DNA of 64,000 nucleotides, from the NCBI GenBank assembly GCA_016195665.1, contig JACPZD010000040.1, positions 1 to 64,000 of the forward strand. Reading direction: 5' to 3'. Below the pieces are notes generated by a model, which searched no databases, was not told the origin of the DNA, and saw nothing but the letters and a program-made list of their open reading frames with translations. Positions 5,916 to 50,640 of this stretch are shown here, piece by piece. A program made the translations under genes and the position numbers. Each line of letters begins with the position of its first letter. Position 1 is the stretch's first letter. Origin of the DNA: Gammaproteobacteria bacterium (lineage in GTDB: Bacteria; Pseudomonadota; Gammaproteobacteria; SURF-13).

Positions 5916-6118
5916 CAGACTGTTGAAAAAGCCCATCCATGGACTTTTTCAACACGGCCGCTCCTGCGCATCCCTGCGCTCGCGGCATTGGGGCGTCCTG
6001 CCCGGCACAAAGCAAAAAGTGCGATTTTTGCTTTGCTCCATTGTTCAAGCACCTACACCGTGCTTGAACAATGGCGGTTCATCCCTGCACCGCACGCAGG
6101 CTGTTTTTCAACAGCCTG
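5916..6118. mobile_element. MITE-like element, copy 1 (CTGTTGAAAAA ends)
   Basis: Non-coding element of 203 bp. Its ends are CAGACTGTTGAAAAA on the left and the inverted CAGGCTGTTGAAAAA on the right (14 of 15 match), flanked by CTAA on both sides (5912-5915 and 6119-6122), a possible 4-bp target duplication. The left copy of CTAA includes the ampG stop codon. The interior contains a palindromic unit (5957-5986) and a stretch also found in the second copy at 32069-32290 in opposite orientation. It encodes no transposase, so it would have to be moved in trans. Confidence 0.7.
5957..5986. repeat. Palindromic unit copy A
   Basis: Outer stem GCCGC (5957-5961) and GCGGC (5982-5986), inner stem TGCGCA-TCCC-TGCGC. 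It belongs to the family described at 20108, 24697, 32216, 41328, 41407, 48906 and 49713. The outer stem carries a compensating T-A to C-G change relative to most copies. Confidence 0.75.
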
Positions 6119-24687: not shown

Positions 24688-26042
24688 GGAGTGCGTGGTC
24701 GCTCCCGGCATCCTGCCTCCCGCGACATTAGTACATCCCTGCACGTCACTTGTTGTACGCCGCGCAGGGCCAACAGCGCCGCGCCATAGGCCGCTTCGCT
24801 CTGTGCAGGTATGGTCATAGCCGTATTTAATAACCGTTTACGGATTTCTGTCCATGCCTCGTTGACCGCGCCGCCGCCGACGCTGAGTATGGAGGTGGGG
24901 TAGGGCGCGCCGAGACTGGCAAGCAATTGATAACCGCGCTGTTCAATGCGCGCGATGCCTTCCAGCAGGCCCTGAAAAAACAGTATGTCATCGGCGGGCC
25001 GCGGTGTAACACGGGGGGGCAGGGTCGCGTCGTTTATGGGGAACCGTTCGCCGGGCGCGGGCAGCGGATAGTAATCCAAACCGGTGGGTTGATCGGGTTT
25101 TAACAAGGGCGTCATGGCGGCCATCTGCTCAGGTGTGAAATAGTGTAGCAGCACGGCGCCGCCGCTGTTCGAGCCCCCTCCCGCCAGCCAGAGATCGCCC
25201 AGGCGGTGGCTGTAGACGCCGTATTCGGGGGCGAAGACGGGTTTTTCAGAGAGCACCTTGACGACCAGCGTGGAGCCGAGCGAGGTGACGGCCTCGCCGG
25301 GGGCGCAGGCCCCTGTGGCGATAAAGGCGGCGGTGGCGTCGGTCGTGCCGGCGACGAGCAGGGTGTCCGCGGCAAGATTGAATTCACGGGCGGCGGCGGC
25401 GCTGACCGCGCCGAGCGGCGTGCCGGCGGGGACGGCTTCAGGGAGCCAATCCCGGCGCACGCCGAGGCGATCAAGCCATGCAGGCCAGCGGCGTTCGAGC
25501 ACGTCATAGCCCAGCTTTAGACAATTGTGCTCGTCGCTTACGCCATACTGGCCGCGCAGTTTCCCGGTGATCCAGTCGGCCGGGCTCAGCGCATGGCGGG
25601 TAGCGGCGGGAGCTAGTGTTTGCAGCGTGAGGAGCTTGGCCAGGCCGCTGCTGGCCCCATGCGCGGCGGTGGTGGGCGGCGCTACCTCGGCGATAGTGGC
25701 CGCTGCGCATTGACTGCGGGCGTCGTTATACATGAGCGCCGGGCCGAGCGGTTCGCCTCGATCATCGGTGAGCAGCAGGGTGCTGGAGGTGCCGTCCACG
25801 GCGATGGCGCGAATATGCTTGGAGGGAACCTTGACCAACACGGCGCGCAAGGCGCTCTCCACCGCTCGCCACCAGAGCTGAGGGTCTTGCTCGACTTCCG
25901 CTCCGCGGCGGAGCGGGGCTGGGAGCGGGATGGCCGCCTGGGCTTGCAGCGTACCCGCGGCATCTATAACCATCGCCCGGCAACCGCTGGTGCCGAGGTC
26001 TATGCCTAGATAAAGTGGCAAGTGACAAGTAGCAAGCGGCAA
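24684..26042 (-). CDS. FGGY-family sugar kinase, D-ribulose-kinase-like
   Basis: 452-residue kinase with the actin-like ATPase fold. N-terminal phosphate loop YLGIDLGTSGCRAMVID, TSSTLLLTDDRGEPLGPALMYNDAR, the catalytic-aspartate region GTTDATAAFI, and a late SILSVGGGAVNEAW motif are visible. The plant and cyanobacterial D-ribulose kinase branch looks closest; xylulokinase is the alternative. The start appears to be TTG. The last residues, about 437-450, are encoded by a palindromic repeat inserted at the 3' end; the stop overlaps the cysZ start, so the two are coupled. Confidence 0.8.
   Translation of the reverse strand: MPLATCHLPLYLGIDLGTSGCRAMVIDAAGTLQAQAAIPLPAPLRRGAEVEQDPQLWWRAVESALRAVLVKVPSKHIRAIAVDGTSSTLLLTDDRGEPLGPALMYNDARSQCAAATIAEVAPPTTAAHGASSGLAKLLTLQTLAPAATRHALSPADWITGKLRGQYGVSDEHNCLKLGYDVLERRWPAWLDRLGVRRDWLPEAVPAGTPLGAVSAAAAREFNLAADTLLVAGTTDATAAFIATGACAPGEAVTSLGSTLVVKVLSEKPVFAPEYGVYSHRLGDLWLAGGGSNSGGAVLLHYFTPEQMAAMTPLLKPDQPTGLDYYPLPAPGERFPINDATLPPRVTPRPADDILFFQGLLEGIARIEQRGYQLLASLGAPYPTSILSVGGGAVNEAWTEIRKRLLNTAMTIPAQSEAAYGAALLALRGVQQVTCRDVLMSREAGCRERPRTP
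24697..24748 (-). repeat. Palindromic element copy C, inside the FGGY kinase
   Basis: Outer stem GTCGC/GCGAC (24698-24702, 24722-24726), inner stem GGCA-TCC-TGCC, and a second hairpin GTAC...GCAC (24731-24744). It is nearly identical to copies at 49713-49764 and 48906-48958. It supplies kinase codons in one frame and extends the open frame upstream of cysZ in another. Confidence 0.85.
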
Positions 26043-32068: not shown

Positions 32069-32290
32069 CCAGCAGGTTGTTGAAAATCTCATTTTCAACA
32101 ACCTGCGTGCGGTACATGGATGTGCCGCCATTTTTCAAGCACGGTGTAGGTGCTTGAAAAATGGAGCAAAGCAAAAATCGCACTTTTTGCTTTGTGCCGG
32201 GTAGGAAGCCCCAATGCCGCGGGCGCACGGATGCGCAGGAGCGGCCGAGTTGAAGAAGCCCACGGATGGGCTTCTTCAACAACCTGCTGG
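32069..32290. mobile_element. MITE-like element, copy 2 (CCAGCAGGTTGTTGAA ends)
   Basis: 222-bp non-coding element with perfect 16-bp inverted ends (32069-32084 and 32275-32290), each backed by a further local hairpin. The interior, including a CAAAGCAAAAA...TTTTTGCTTTG hairpin and palindromic unit D, is an inverted counterpart of the element at 5916-6118. It lies between ligA and the TA island. Confidence 0.75.
32216..32245. repeat. Palindromic unit copy D
   Basis: Outer stem GCCGC (32216-32220) and GCGGC (32241-32245), inner stem GCGCA-CGGA-TGCGC. It has the C-G version of the outer stem, as copy A does. Confidence 0.75.
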
Positions 32291-33433: not shown

Positions 33434-33772
33434 TCATTCGCATGTCGGATCAGGGCTCGACTTATAGCGGCTTTCCCACAATGTGCCGGTGCGTCCTTCC
33501 AGCCGATTGTGGCATCTCGTCTGCCGGCCGGCTAAGCGTTTCATCAACTGCCCGAGTCCCGTAATCTGTTCTGGCGCGACGAGCAAATGGACGTGGTTCG
33601 TCATCAGGCAATAAGCATAAACCCTGACGCCGAAGACATCCTTGAACGTGGCCAGTGTTTCGAGATACCTCTCGAAATCACGCACCTCGGCAAAAACAAC
33701 CTGCCGATTATGCCCGCGCTGAATGATGTGATGCGGATAGTATGGCAAGATAGTTCTACCCACCCGTGGCAT
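33434..33772 (-). pseudogene. REP-associated transposase (Y1 family), truncated
   Basis: 112 residues of an IS200-like single-strand transposase: PRVGRTILPYYPHHIIQRGHNRQ and MTNHVHLLV, the HUH metal site, are intact, but the frame ends soon after GTLWESRYKSS. The usual helix with the catalytic tyrosine (Y..NPV) is missing; full members are around 200-240 residues. The DUF4926 gene starts 10 bases beyond the break. It is therefore inactive. Confidence 0.8.
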
Positions 33773-36586: not shown

Positions 36587-37135
36587 ATGCCACGATACCG
36601 GCGCGCAAACGCAGAGGGGGCCACCTATTTCTTCACTGTGGTCAGTTACCGCCGCCAAGCAATATTATGCGACGAACCCATCCGGACGGCACTGCGTCAA
36701 GCGATCAAGCAGGTGCAGGGTTTGCACCCATTTACCATTGACGCCTGGGTATTGTTACCTGATCATTTACATTGTATCTGGACATTGCCTGATGGTGACA
36801 GCGACTTTGCCACTCGTTGGAGCATGATTAAACGCAAGGTCAGTCTGGCCTGCGCAAATCAATACAAACGTGAAGACTGGATAACGCCCTCGAAGCGTAA
36901 ACACCGGGAATCCACGATTTGGCAGCGGCGCTATTGGGAGCATCAAATCCGGGATGACGGCGATTTTATGCGCCATGTTGGTTACATTCATTACAACCCG
37001 GTGAAGCATGGACACTGCGAGCGTGCCGCTCTATGGCCTTACTCGACATTTTACCGCTATGTCAAACAGGGCATTTACCCGGTGGATTGGGGAGCTGCCG
37101 ATACAAGATTGGAGGAAGGGACGTTTGGTGAATAA
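36587..37135 (+). CDS. REP-associated tyrosine transposase (RAYT)
   Basis: 182-residue Y1/HUH transposase that would cut and join single-stranded REP sequences. Start MPRYRRANAEGATYFFTVVSYRRQ, HUH site LLPDHLHCIWTLP (about 56-68), and the catalytic-tyrosine helix RHVGYIHYNPVKHG are all present, followed by WPYSTFYRYV. It appears intact. It is bracketed by matching REP palindromes, and six copies of that REP lie within 1.5 kb. The last 94 bases plus the 3' REP are duplicated in tandem downstream. Confidence 0.93.
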   Translation: MPRYRRANAEGATYFFTVVSYRRQAILCDEPIRTALRQAIKQVQGLHPFTIDAWVLLPDHLHCIWTLPDGDSDFATRWSMIKRKVSLACANQYKREDWITPSKRKHRESTIWQRRYWEHQIRDDGDFMRHVGYIHYNPVKHGHCERAALWPYSTFYRYVKQGIYPVDWGAADTRLEEGTFGE

Positions 37136-41247: not shown

Positions 41248-41327
41248 ACCATAGCAGGATGACTGACGGGCGCCTCTAAAAATAGTGGATTTTGGCTTTA
41301 GGCAAGGCGAAATTCTGCGAGGAAGCG

Positions 41328-41357
41328 GTCGCTCCTGCGCATCCCTGCGCCCGCGAC
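41328..41357. repeat. Palindromic unit copy E1
   Basis: Outer stem GTCGC (41328-41332) and GCGAC (41353-41357); inner stem TGCGCA-TCCC-TGCGC. Left half of the inverted pair in the ppk1 MITE. Confidence 0.8.
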
Positions 41358-41406
41358 ATTCGGGCTTCCTGCCCAGCACAGTGTACACGATAGTACATGA
41401 GCATTC

Positions 41407-41458
41407 CGACGTACAGGGATGTACTAGTGTCGCGGGAGGCAGGACGCCGGAAGCGACC
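41407..41458. repeat. Palindromic element copy E2
   Basis: GTAC-AGGGAT-GTAC hairpin (41411-41424) followed by outer stem GTCGC/GCGAC (41429-41433, 41453-41457). It is the long version shared with the copies inside prlC and the FGGY kinase. Confidence 0.85.
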
Positions 41459-48297: not shown

Positions 48298-50439
48298 ATG
48301 ACCAATCCCTTGTTGGAATTCAGCGGCCTGCCACGGTTTTCCGTCATTCTGCCTGAGCATGTCGAGCCGGCAGTTGACGCCCTGCTGGCCGGTAATCGCA
48401 CCCGCATTGCGGCGTTGCTGGATGCCACGGCGCACTACACCTGGGATAATCTGATACAACCCATTGAAGATCTGGAGGAGCGCCTGGAGCATGCATGGTC
48501 CACCGTCAGTCATCTCAACGCCGTGGTCAATTCGGAGGCGCTGCGCGCGGCCTACAACGCCTGTCTTCCCAAGCTCAGCGACTACGCGGCCGAGATGGGA
48601 CAAAACGCACGCCTCTATCAGGCCTACAAAGCCATCGCCGCAGGGCCTGAATACACTGCACTGAGCGTGGCGCAGAAAAAGATCATTGACAATGCCTTGC
48701 GTGATTTTCACCTTTCCGGCATTGACCTCAATCCCGCCGCCCAGGCGCGCTACAAGGCCATCACGCAAGAGCTTTCCAAACTCGCCAGTCAATTCGAGGA
48801 GCATCTGCTGGACGCGACTCACGGCTGGACTCGCCACGTGACAGACGCGGCCGGGCTTGCCGGGCTGCCGCCCACCGCGGTCGCGCTGGCCCGGCAACGC
48901 GCGGAGGTCGCTCCCGGCTTCCTGCCTCCCGCGACATTAGTACCTCCGTGTACGTCACAGGACAAACTGGACGGCTGGCTGTTCACCCTGGAACTGCCTT
49001 CTTATCTGCCGGTGATGAAATACGCTGATCACCGCACGCTGCGCCATGAGATGTACGAGGCCTATGTCACGCGCGCCAGCGAACTCGGGCCCAATGCAGG
49101 CAAGTGGGATAATGGCCCGATTATTGAAAAATTATTGCCGCTGCGTCACGAGTTGGCGCAACTGTTGGGTTTTAATAATTACGCTGAGCTGTCACTCGCA
49201 AAAAAAATGGCCAAGAGCAGCTCCCAGGTTATGGGTTTTCTCAATGACCTGGCGCGCCGCTCGAAACCGATGGCTGAGCATGAGTTCACCGAACTCAGGG
49301 AATTCGCGCACGCCCAGGGAATCGAGACGCTGGAGGCATGGGACATTCCCTACTACACCGAAAAACTCAGCCAGCACAAATACGCCATCTCACAAGAGGA
49401 CCTGCGCCCCTACTTTCCCGAGCCGCGGGTGCTGGAGGGTTTGTTTGCAATCATGAACCGTCTCTACAATCTCAGCGTCAGGGAGGTCAAGGGCGTGGAA
49501 GTCTGGCGTCCCGATGTGCGTTTCTATGAAGTCCGCGATGCCGCTACCCAAGAAGTGCGCGGCCAATTTTATCTTGACCTGTACGCGCGTCCGCACAAGC
49601 GCGGAGGCGCATGGATGGCCGAGTGCATCACCCGCAAGCGCACTGCGGCCGGGGTGCAGACCCCGGTCGCCTATCTGACCTGTAATTTCAGCGCACCGAT
49701 CGGCGACGATCCTGACGTACAGGGACGTACTAATGTCGCGGGAGGCAGGATGCCGGGAGCGACCGCGCTGTTCACCCACGACGAGGTGCTCACCCTGTTT
49801 CACGAGTTCGGCCACGGCCTGCATCACCTGCTCACGCGCGTGGATTATGCCGGTGTGGCCGGCATCAACGGCGTCGCGTGGGATGCAGTGGAACTGCCCA
49901 GCCAATTCATGGAGAACTGGTGTTGGGAGCGTGAGGCGCTGGATCTGATCGCCGGACACTATCAGACCGGCGCACCGCTGCCGCAGTCCATGTTGGACAA
50001 GATGCTCGCTGCAAAAAACTTCCAGTCAGGCCTGCACATGCTCCGGCAACTGGAATTTTCGCTGTTCGATTTTCGCCTGCACCTGGAGTTTGACCCGCAA
50101 AAAGGCCCGCAGGTGCGCGAGTTGCTCGATGAGGTGCGTGCGGAGGTCGCCGTCATTCGACCGCCCGCCTTCAATCGTTTTGCCAACAGCTTCTCGCATA
50201 TCTTCGCCGGCGACTACGGTGCGGGTTATTACAGCTACAAATGGGCTGAAGTCTTGTCCTCCGACGCATACGCCAAGTTCGAGGAGCGCGGCATCTTTGA
50301 TCGCGCCACCGGCCTGCATTTCCTGCACACCGTCCTTGAGCAGGGCGGCAGCCGCGAGCCGATGGAGCTGTTCGTAGAGTTTCGCGGCCGGGAACCGACC
50401 ATAGATGCGTTATTGCAACATAGTGGCATTGCGACATGA
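48298..50439 (+). CDS. prlC: Oligopeptidase A (M3 metallopeptidase) with two repeat-encoded insertions
   Basis: 713-residue cytoplasmic zinc peptidase that degrades signal peptides and short peptides. The active site HEFGH is at residues 502-506, within LTLFHEFGHGLHHLLTRV. E. coli OpdA has 680 residues; the excess of 33 is almost exactly two 17-codon inserts. Residues about 204-220 (VAPGFLPPATLVPPCTS) and 473-489 (DVQGRTNVAGGRMPGAT) are encoded by palindromic elements in opposite orientations, and neither stretch has a counterpart in E. coli OpdA, where the flanking sequence is otherwise collinear. The second insert ends 12 residues before the active-site motif. The frame is open throughout, so the protein is probably made. 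Confidence 0.95.
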   Translation: MTNPLLEFSGLPRFSVILPEHVEPAVDALLAGNRTRIAALLDATAHYTWDNLIQPIEDLEERLEHAWSTVSHLNAVVNSEALRAAYNACLPKLSDYAAEMGQNARLYQAYKAIAAGPEYTALSVAQKKIIDNALRDFHLSGIDLNPAAQARYKAITQELSKLASQFEEHLLDATHGWTRHVTDAAGLAGLPPTAVALARQRAEVAPGFLPPATLVPPCTSQDKLDGWLFTLELPSYLPVMKYADHRTLRHEMYEAYVTRASELGPNAGKWDNGPIIEKLLPLRHELAQLLGFNNYAELSLAKKMAKSSSQVMGFLNDLARRSKPMAEHEFTELREFAHAQGIETLEAWDIPYYTEKLSQHKYAISQEDLRPYFPEPRVLEGLFAIMNRLYNLSVREVKGVEVWRPDVRFYEVRDAATQEVRGQFYLDLYARPHKRGGAWMAECITRKRTAAGVQTPVAYLTCNFSAPIGDDPDVQGRTNVAGGRMPGATALFTHDEVLTLFHEFGHGLHHLLTRVDYAGVAGINGVAWDAVELPSQFMENWCWEREALDLIAGHYQTGAPLPQSMLDKMLAAKNFQSGLHMLRQLEFSLFDFRLHLEFDPQKGPQVRELLDEVRAEVAVIRPPAFNRFANSFSHIFAGDYGAGYYSYKWAEVLSSDAYAKFEERGIFDRATGLHFLHTVLEQGGSREPMELFVEFRGREPTIDALLQHSGIAT
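48906..48958 (-). repeat. Palindromic element copy F1, in-frame in prlC
   Basis: Outer stem GTCGC (48907-48911) and GCGAC (48931-48935), inner region CCGGCTTCCTGCC, then the GTAC...GTAC hairpin (48940-48953). It is in the opposite orientation to F2, and about 51 bp long, a multiple of three. Confidence 0.88.
49713..49764 (+). repeat. Palindromic element copy F2, in-frame in prlC
   Basis: Hairpin GTAC-AGGGAC-GTAC (49717-49730), then outer stem GTCGC (49735-49739) and GCGAC (49759-49763) around GGCA-GGA-TGCC. It differs from the copy in the FGGY kinase at very few positions. Confidence 0.9.
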
Positions 50440-50477
50440 CAGATTTCACGCAAAGGGGCAAAAATATTTATAGAACT

Positions 50478-50640
50478 ACATTCACCGCAGAGGATGCAGA
50501 GAAACGCAAAGAAAAATACACAAACCGCCAAAGGCGCAGAGAAATAAGATCAAAAAAACTTGGCTTCTACTCCGCGTCCTCTGCGGTGAATAGTTTTTAA
50601 TTTGGCGCCTTTGCGTCTTGGCGTGACATAAGCAATGCTG
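50478..50640. repeat. CCGCAGAGG dispersed repeat (R5)
   Basis: TTCACCGCAGAGGATGCAGAG and the inverted CTCTGCGGTGAA partner surround a second inverted pair built on CCGCCAAAGGCGCAGAG and TTGGCGCCTTTGCGTC. It fills the prlC to xthA spacer. Confidence 0.8.

Follow-up and report, generated by a model that had tools for sequence, protein, structure and literature searches.

Opposite copies of a dispersed 51-nt palindromic repeat lie in frame in the oligopeptidase A gene of a gammaproteobacterium

The oligopeptidase A gene (prlC) of a gammaproteobacterium carries two segments of 17 codons each, which are copies, in opposite orientations, of a single 51-nt palindromic repeat. We regard it as highly probable that these segments arose by insertion of a short, non-autonomous mobile unit, a double hairpin like REPs or Rickettsia palindromic elements (RPEs) with a net length of 51 nt, and that the resulting 17-residue peptides are translated and tolerated. 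The gene was studied in a stretch of 64,000 nt (hereinafter the window), along with the rest of its genome (G000) and those of relatives. With a length that is a multiple of three and four of its six frames open, the element yields a 17-residue in-frame peptide in most genic insertions. Its persistence may then be pictured as follows: PrlC and no fewer than 36 further proteins of the genome would have this peptide translated as a flexible loop accepted by the fold; and, the host gene surviving with its loop, the selfish DNA would persist.

The two inserts of PrlC and their distribution in relatives

The features of the gene, with the evidence for each, are as follows:

48298..50439, + strand: prlC, oligopeptidase A (M3 metallopeptidase), 713 aa; Pfam, PDB match and relatives
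48907..48957, + strand: insert 1, residues 204-220, VAPGFLPPATLVPPCTS, the 51-nt repeat in forward orientation; repeat match at 48906-48957, gap in the readable relatives, pLDDT < 50
49714..49764, - strand: insert 2, residues 473-489, DVQGRTNVAGGRMPGAT, the repeat reversed and read by prlC on the + strand; repeat match at 49713-49764, gap in the readable relatives except G005, pLDDT < 50
49801..49815, + strand: HEFGH zinc motif, residues 502-506, 12 residues past insert 2; 40-sequence alignment

PrlC is an M3 oligopeptidase A by its Peptidase_M3 domain (Pfam, 3e-149, with TOP_N at 9e-29), its HEFGH zinc motif and its TOP fold. Its best solved relatives are the Arabidopsis oligopeptidase A proteins (PDB 4ka8, E=2e-166), its identity to relatives ranges from 42 to 73%, and H502, E503 and H506 are invariant in an alignment of 40 sequences. 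A repeat search of the window recovers the two arms in prlC as 52-nt matches that are 94% complementary and spaced by 755 nt; the net insertion per copy is 51 nt rather than 52-53, and each translates to exactly 17 aa. A sequence-only reading of this DNA had described two inserts of about 17 codons in opposite orientations, had attributed to them the excess in length over E. coli OpdA, and had placed the end of the second 12 residues ahead of the zinc motif. All three points stand: the two inserts account in full for the excess of 713 over about 679 aa.

Among 26 aligned PrlC sequences drawn from whole genomes, with 24 relatives usable and row G020 (read on the wrong strand) left out, both inserts appear as clean 17-aa gaps with all flanking residues kept, the sole exception being insert 2 in G005, a genome of the same family and another genus. 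A second alignment of 40 PrlC sequences from public genomes has neither insert in any other row, and the element occurs in none of 80 named prlC loci within the stretches examined. Conversely, a pattern for the first hairpin of the repeat (the repeat arm), allowing up to 3 mismatches, has 105 matches in the 2.38 Mb genome, as against none for the reversed control pattern. The derivation of the peptides from a mobile repeat, also proposed in that reading, is thus supported. A chance similarity or a convergent loop sequence with no link to mobile DNA, the coincidence that it had named as its refutation, has practically no probability left: relatives without the repeat are also without the residues, DNA identity to dozens of copies is high, and the control is empty.

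The AlphaFold2 model of PrlC, built from the window protein and 39 relatives, has a mean pLDDT of 91 and a pTM of 0.90, with pLDDT falling below 50 only at residues 206-220 and 473-486, both within the inserts; in Foldseek it superposes on 4ka7 and 4ka8 with a TM-score of 0.91. The prediction is hence of an intact enzyme fold in which each insert forms a disordered loop, in keeping with the surface loops on an otherwise well-conserved protein that had been anticipated.

Insert 2 of G005 calls for separate consideration. It lies at the same codon and in the same orientation as in G000, is 98% identical in DNA (50/51) against 72% for prlC overall, and is followed by a run of 41 nt identical in both genomes. 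The prlC of G001 is 90% identical to that of G005, yet lacks the insert, which is also missing from G003 (like G001, of the same genus as G005) and from G002. The common site, orientation, trailing run and near-identity could mean a single ancestral insertion lost elsewhere, or a short-tract gene transfer, rather than two independent insertions. We give this reading, which is compatible with the insertion of a tolerated mobile element, somewhat less than an even chance: an old neutral insert should have diverged as its flanks did; the 120-nt flanks (82/85% between G000 and G005, against 72/87% for G001 and 80/86% for G002) are not more alike than the overall expectation; and an ancestral insertion requires several precise losses. 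Given the divergence expected of one old insertion, the shared insert probably stems either from two separate hits on this site or from the transfer of a short tract.

The same near-identity at one codon in a diverged gene, together with the presence of two copies in prlC, might be taken to indicate a selected function, i.e., loops retained for an effect on PrlC in substrate access, partner binding or regulation, with insert 2 adjoining the active site. We consider this improbable, as insert 2 is missing from G001, G002 and G003, the loops are predicted to be unstructured, and the same peptides occur in dozens of unrelated proteins.

Other peculiarities were seen in homologous prlC genes. Just 5' of the empty insert-2 site, the G001 gene (L013) reads YLTCTTAQP in place of YLTCNFSAP, which looks like the outcome of compensating small indels. 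In an uncultured proteobacterium (Loc080925 bin 0372; prlC at L115:1373-3454) an unrelated in-frame insert, MFHVKQSTNDANDSAMFHVEQS (L115:1982-2044), occupies the place of insert 1 and holds two parS-like 16-mers, TGTTCCACGTGAAACA and its inverse TGTTTCACGTGGAACA; palindromic DNA of various kinds may thus be received in this loop. Finally, the PrlC of Candidatus Thiosymbion (L119:1436-3625) has an in-frame insert of ~50 aa, unrelated to the 51-nt repeat, ahead of its GELRGQFYLD strand.

Structure, spread and movement of the 51-nt element

The consensus of the element, GTCGCTCCCGGCNTCCTGCCTCCCGCGACAYTAGYACNTCCNTGYRCGTCR, forms two hairpins, of which the first encloses a further, inner one; the stems measure 5, 4 and 4-5 bp and have G-C pairs at their base. 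Columns 36-47 covary between T-A and C-G in 113 of 118 copies, as do columns 32-52, which flank hairpin 2 on both sides, in 117 of 118; columns 34-50 are also coupled, and the pairing is kept alike in genic and non-genic copies. Full copies span 52 columns in 119 of 130 cases, 70 columns (+18) in six and other amounts in five. The length is nearly the same within and outside genes; hence, its being a multiple of three is mainly a property of the element itself rather than the result of a filter. The longer version (+18 nt, likewise a multiple of three) has the module AGAACCCTTCGCTGTCGCTC and is also found in frame in genes, at L053:5500-5569, L063:1755-1822 and L058:601-668.

Further members in the window, beyond those in prlC, are two full copies and three copies of a sister repeat (type B), which has the same first hairpin and a different second one:

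24697..24748, + strand: full 51-nt copy, not classed as intragenic; repeat match
41408..41458, - strand: full 51-nt copy, not classed as intragenic; repeat match
41327..41378, + strand: type B; repeat comparison
32195..32245, - strand: type B; repeat comparison
5957..6007, + strand: type B; repeat comparison

Type B was found in genes in 0 of 16 cases (Fisher P = 5e-5, for copies that have flanks in common and are not independent). Another dispersed repeat family, ACCGCAGAGGACGCAGAGG, is present in inverted arrangement just 3' of prlC (window 50473-50502 and 50570-50596), with more copies at window 12892, 15088, 19958 and 43591.

The element is matched in 50 of 369 gammaproteobacterial genomes (about 14%; 44 of the 314 of good quality). 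Carriage by plasmids or phages was considered and rejected, as the plasmid search returned no match and the phage search a single weak one of half length. A scan of three element loci with Rfam yielded nothing at the gathering score.

The precision of insertion is apparent from nested copies (L049 6500-6602, L049 13621-13723 and L067 994-1096), in which each composite measures 103 nt, that is, 52 + 51. Therefore, the inserted unit is 51 nt long, no more than one base being ambiguous, and comes without target duplication. A weak target preference, approximately C-A-G-G, is seen 3' of the element end, and the element inserts into coding and non-coding DNA alike. Covarying hairpin ends and the absence of a target duplication are suggestive of a single-strand mechanism like that of IS200/IS605/RAYT (Y1/HUH) units. 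Mobilisation in trans, by a transposase of that type recognising the end hairpin, would fit, although we hold it only tentatively. Among the nine genes of the genome with the Y1 transposase domain (PF01797), seven examined with the stretches around them and two in the window, none has a linked full copy there, and the repeats beside those inspected are their own GTAG-type repeats or others; a RAYT as mobiliser was thus rejected. In G005, whose prlC bears the element, PF01797 has no match. Coevolution of a guide in the element with the target bases of its flank was also explored and set aside, the couplings being weak and none of a pattern that would prove retargeting. The two Y1 (RAYT-like) transposase genes of the window lie at 33455-33733 and 36626-36991, the latter among GTAG-type hairpins GTAGGGTGGGCAC...GTGCCCAC (35872, 36023, 36522, 37137 and 37267) as a classical REP/RAYT locus.

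Host genes, reading frames and selection

In a census of the stretches around 90 full copies in the genome, with codon usage scored on both sides and some, mostly diverged, copies falling outside, at least 46 of the 90 are genic, in at least 37 genes and every one in an open frame; some of these calls rest on codon-usage scores rather than on homologous empty sites. The hosts named by Pfam include enolase, iPGM, phosphofructokinase, a SucC-type ATP-grasp ligase and a LysA-type decarboxylase; DnaG, PriA, UvrA and RecG-like and RecB-like helicases; MnmE, QueC, a PcnB-type poly(A) polymerase and valyl-tRNA synthetase; and ManC, a bifunctional penicillin-binding protein and CsoS2. Hosts in relatives include TsaD, topoisomerase I, TGT, GlyS, RNase E/G, GCV_T and AnmK, and in other gammaproteobacterial families two copies (L044 and L260) are also open through a gene-like frame. 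Many inserts fall within a single Pfam domain match of the host protein. The hosts are conserved enzymes that look intact: against the E. coli chains, enolase and SucC have a surplus of exactly 17 aa across the aligned range, and in iPGM and UvrA the insert is visible as a local gap.

The element is borne by a P-type ATPase in three genera and by valyl-tRNA synthetase in two genera, at sites that differ. The ATPase homologues (L067, L205 and L227, apparently with different sites) are 86-88% identical, above the level for prlC, which suggests transfer. The carboxysome shell protein CsoS2 (L077:1333-4200) holds four copies, of which two adjoin head to tail (17 + 17 aa); as the genome encodes CsoS2, the organism is probably an autotroph.

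The element adds 51 nt and the frame is kept automatically. The sequence-only reading had held that two in-frame hits in one gene would be improbable if insertion were random and unselected. That argument fails: with four of six frames open, two open hits have P near 0.44, and two hits in some gene among 46 copies have P of about 0.49, so that the doubled insertion in prlC is in itself no sign of selection. Across the genome, seven genes have two or more copies against 0.65 expected, an excess that would accord with a selected function; however, genes that are insertion-tolerant or rich in targets explain it as well, with no benefit needed.

Selection is visible elsewhere. When insertion of the element into the window was simulated at random and scored with the same gene classifier, 42.6% of insertions were genic-open, 18.7% genic-closed and 38.7% other; the observed copies (n=90) number 46, 0 and 44, respectively. 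Closed frames thus make up 0 of 46 genic copies as against about 31% expected (P = 5e-8), and 0 of 68 once G001, G002 and G005 are added (P = 2e-11). The genic share, 51%, compares with 52% expected after removal of closed copies. A general avoidance of genes, entertained from raw coding density, was dropped, the classifier calling 61% of random insertions genic against the observed 51% (P = 0.05). As about one true genic site in three escapes the classifier, the true genic count is probably above 46.

The open frames are not used evenly: the frame encoding DVQGRTNVAGGRMPGAT accounts for 40 of the 68 genic copies, where the target preference in coding DNA predicts 17.5; in the remaining open frames there are 16, 8 and 4, with 24.7, 11.9 and 13.9 predicted (chi-square P = 8e-9). 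Such a bias suggests better tolerance of the Gly/Ala-rich peptide DVQGRTNVAGGRMPGAT, with an orientation effect of insertion not fully separable from it. Taken together, the missing closed frames, the multi-hit genes and the excess of one peptide point to purifying selection and tolerance rather than to a benefit of the PrlC loops.

These data also bear on whether the inserts might be skipped, i.e., removed from the mRNA or bypassed by the ribosome to give a normal protein. There is precedent for bypass in the translational bypassing elements of Magnusiomyces mitochondria, and both the transcript hairpins (-15.6 and -17 kcal/mol) and the placement of short GC-rich elements within essential genes would fit it. 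Skipping, however, would tolerate frames containing stops, which are absent from all 68 genic copies, and the frame use is biased beyond the target preference; we hence deem it very unlikely. The lack of closed frames instead supports translation of the host proteins through the element, and on these sequence grounds the host enzymes would be expected to contain the peptides and remain active.

Relationship to known elements and significance

In-frame insertion of palindromic DNA is already known from RPEs and intragenic REPs. The RPEs of Rickettsia (Ogata et al. 2000, 2002, summarised in PMC10969869), originally given a length of about 150 nt, come from alphaproteobacterial intracellular genomes. 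Like the element, they and their Wolbachia equivalent are short, mobile and palindromic, and lie in frame within many genes of unrelated function as tolerated peptides, with intergenic copies too; the present element, a dispersed palindromic repeat with many in-frame copies in conserved genes, is RPE-like in this sense. It differs in its length of 51 (or 69) nt, in having no known sequence relation to RPEs, and in belonging to a gammaproteobacterial family and a probable autotroph.

The GTAG- and CGTC-tagged REPs (Di Nocera et al. 2013, PMC3733652) are palindromes of 20-40 bp that are mostly intergenic; some lie in ORFs, in many cases those of DNA repair or tRNA-related genes. They resemble the element in being palindromic, scattered and of high copy number, with some units in ORFs and repair and tRNA genes among the hosts. 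The CGTC families, with stems of 8-9 bp and a CCA tail, have no dedicated or linked transposase reported (PMC3733652), a further likeness. In contrast, our element is one 51-nt double-hairpin unit with stems of 4-5 bp, and about half or more of its copies are genic. CGTC REPs have an unpaired CGTC (or TGTC/CCTC) at one end; the element ends in GTACGTC(A/G), and the C of CGTC is paired in the stem. The CGTC-REP stem (8-9 bp, A-T start, loop of 4-5 nt) is not matched by its stems. The GTAG tag was not found in the 51-nt consensus, nor was a full copy found in the stretches around the nine PF01797 genes.

With IS200/IS605 ends and RAYT-mobilised REPs, the element has in common subterminal hairpins, the lack of terminal inverted repeats and of a long target duplication, and covariation of the bases flanking the end hairpin (columns 32-52 and 34-50). 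However, no Y1 transposase is flanked by the 51-nt element, and its target preference is at the 3' flank, in the orientation with seemingly guide-like covariation, whereas in the classical IS200/IS605 case it is 5' of the left end. MITEs are likewise short, non-autonomous and capable of in-frame fusions, but the element, with ends GTCGC.../...GTCA, has neither terminal inverted repeats nor target-site duplication. Sequence words of the element were not found in the literature searched. Thus, it is apparently an undescribed family, set apart from the RPE and REP families, as these are described, by its 51-nt unit, its short stems and its high genic share.

The element might even be adapted to intragenic life. 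With a length fixed at 51 or 69 nt, both divisible by three, with four open frames out of six and with a Gly/Ala/Thr-rich loop peptide encoded in the preferred one, it could have coding DNA as an ordinary habitat. We raise this as a possibility that is less likely than not; if true, the element would be a natural loop-insertion mutagen of the whole proteome.

RPEs have passed for an oddity confined to intracellular genomes; the present, far shorter element does likewise in a probable autotroph and across a lineage of Gammaproteobacteria, and is present in essential enzymes such as enolase, iPGM, valyl-tRNA synthetase, DnaG, PriA and UvrA. Each copy amounts to a natural experiment on where a protein accepts a 17-residue loop, for which the empty sites of relatives provide the before state. 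Two questions thereby come within reach of a test: does selfish DNA steadily supply novelty in protein length and sequence, and can an element evolve harmlessness in coding DNA?
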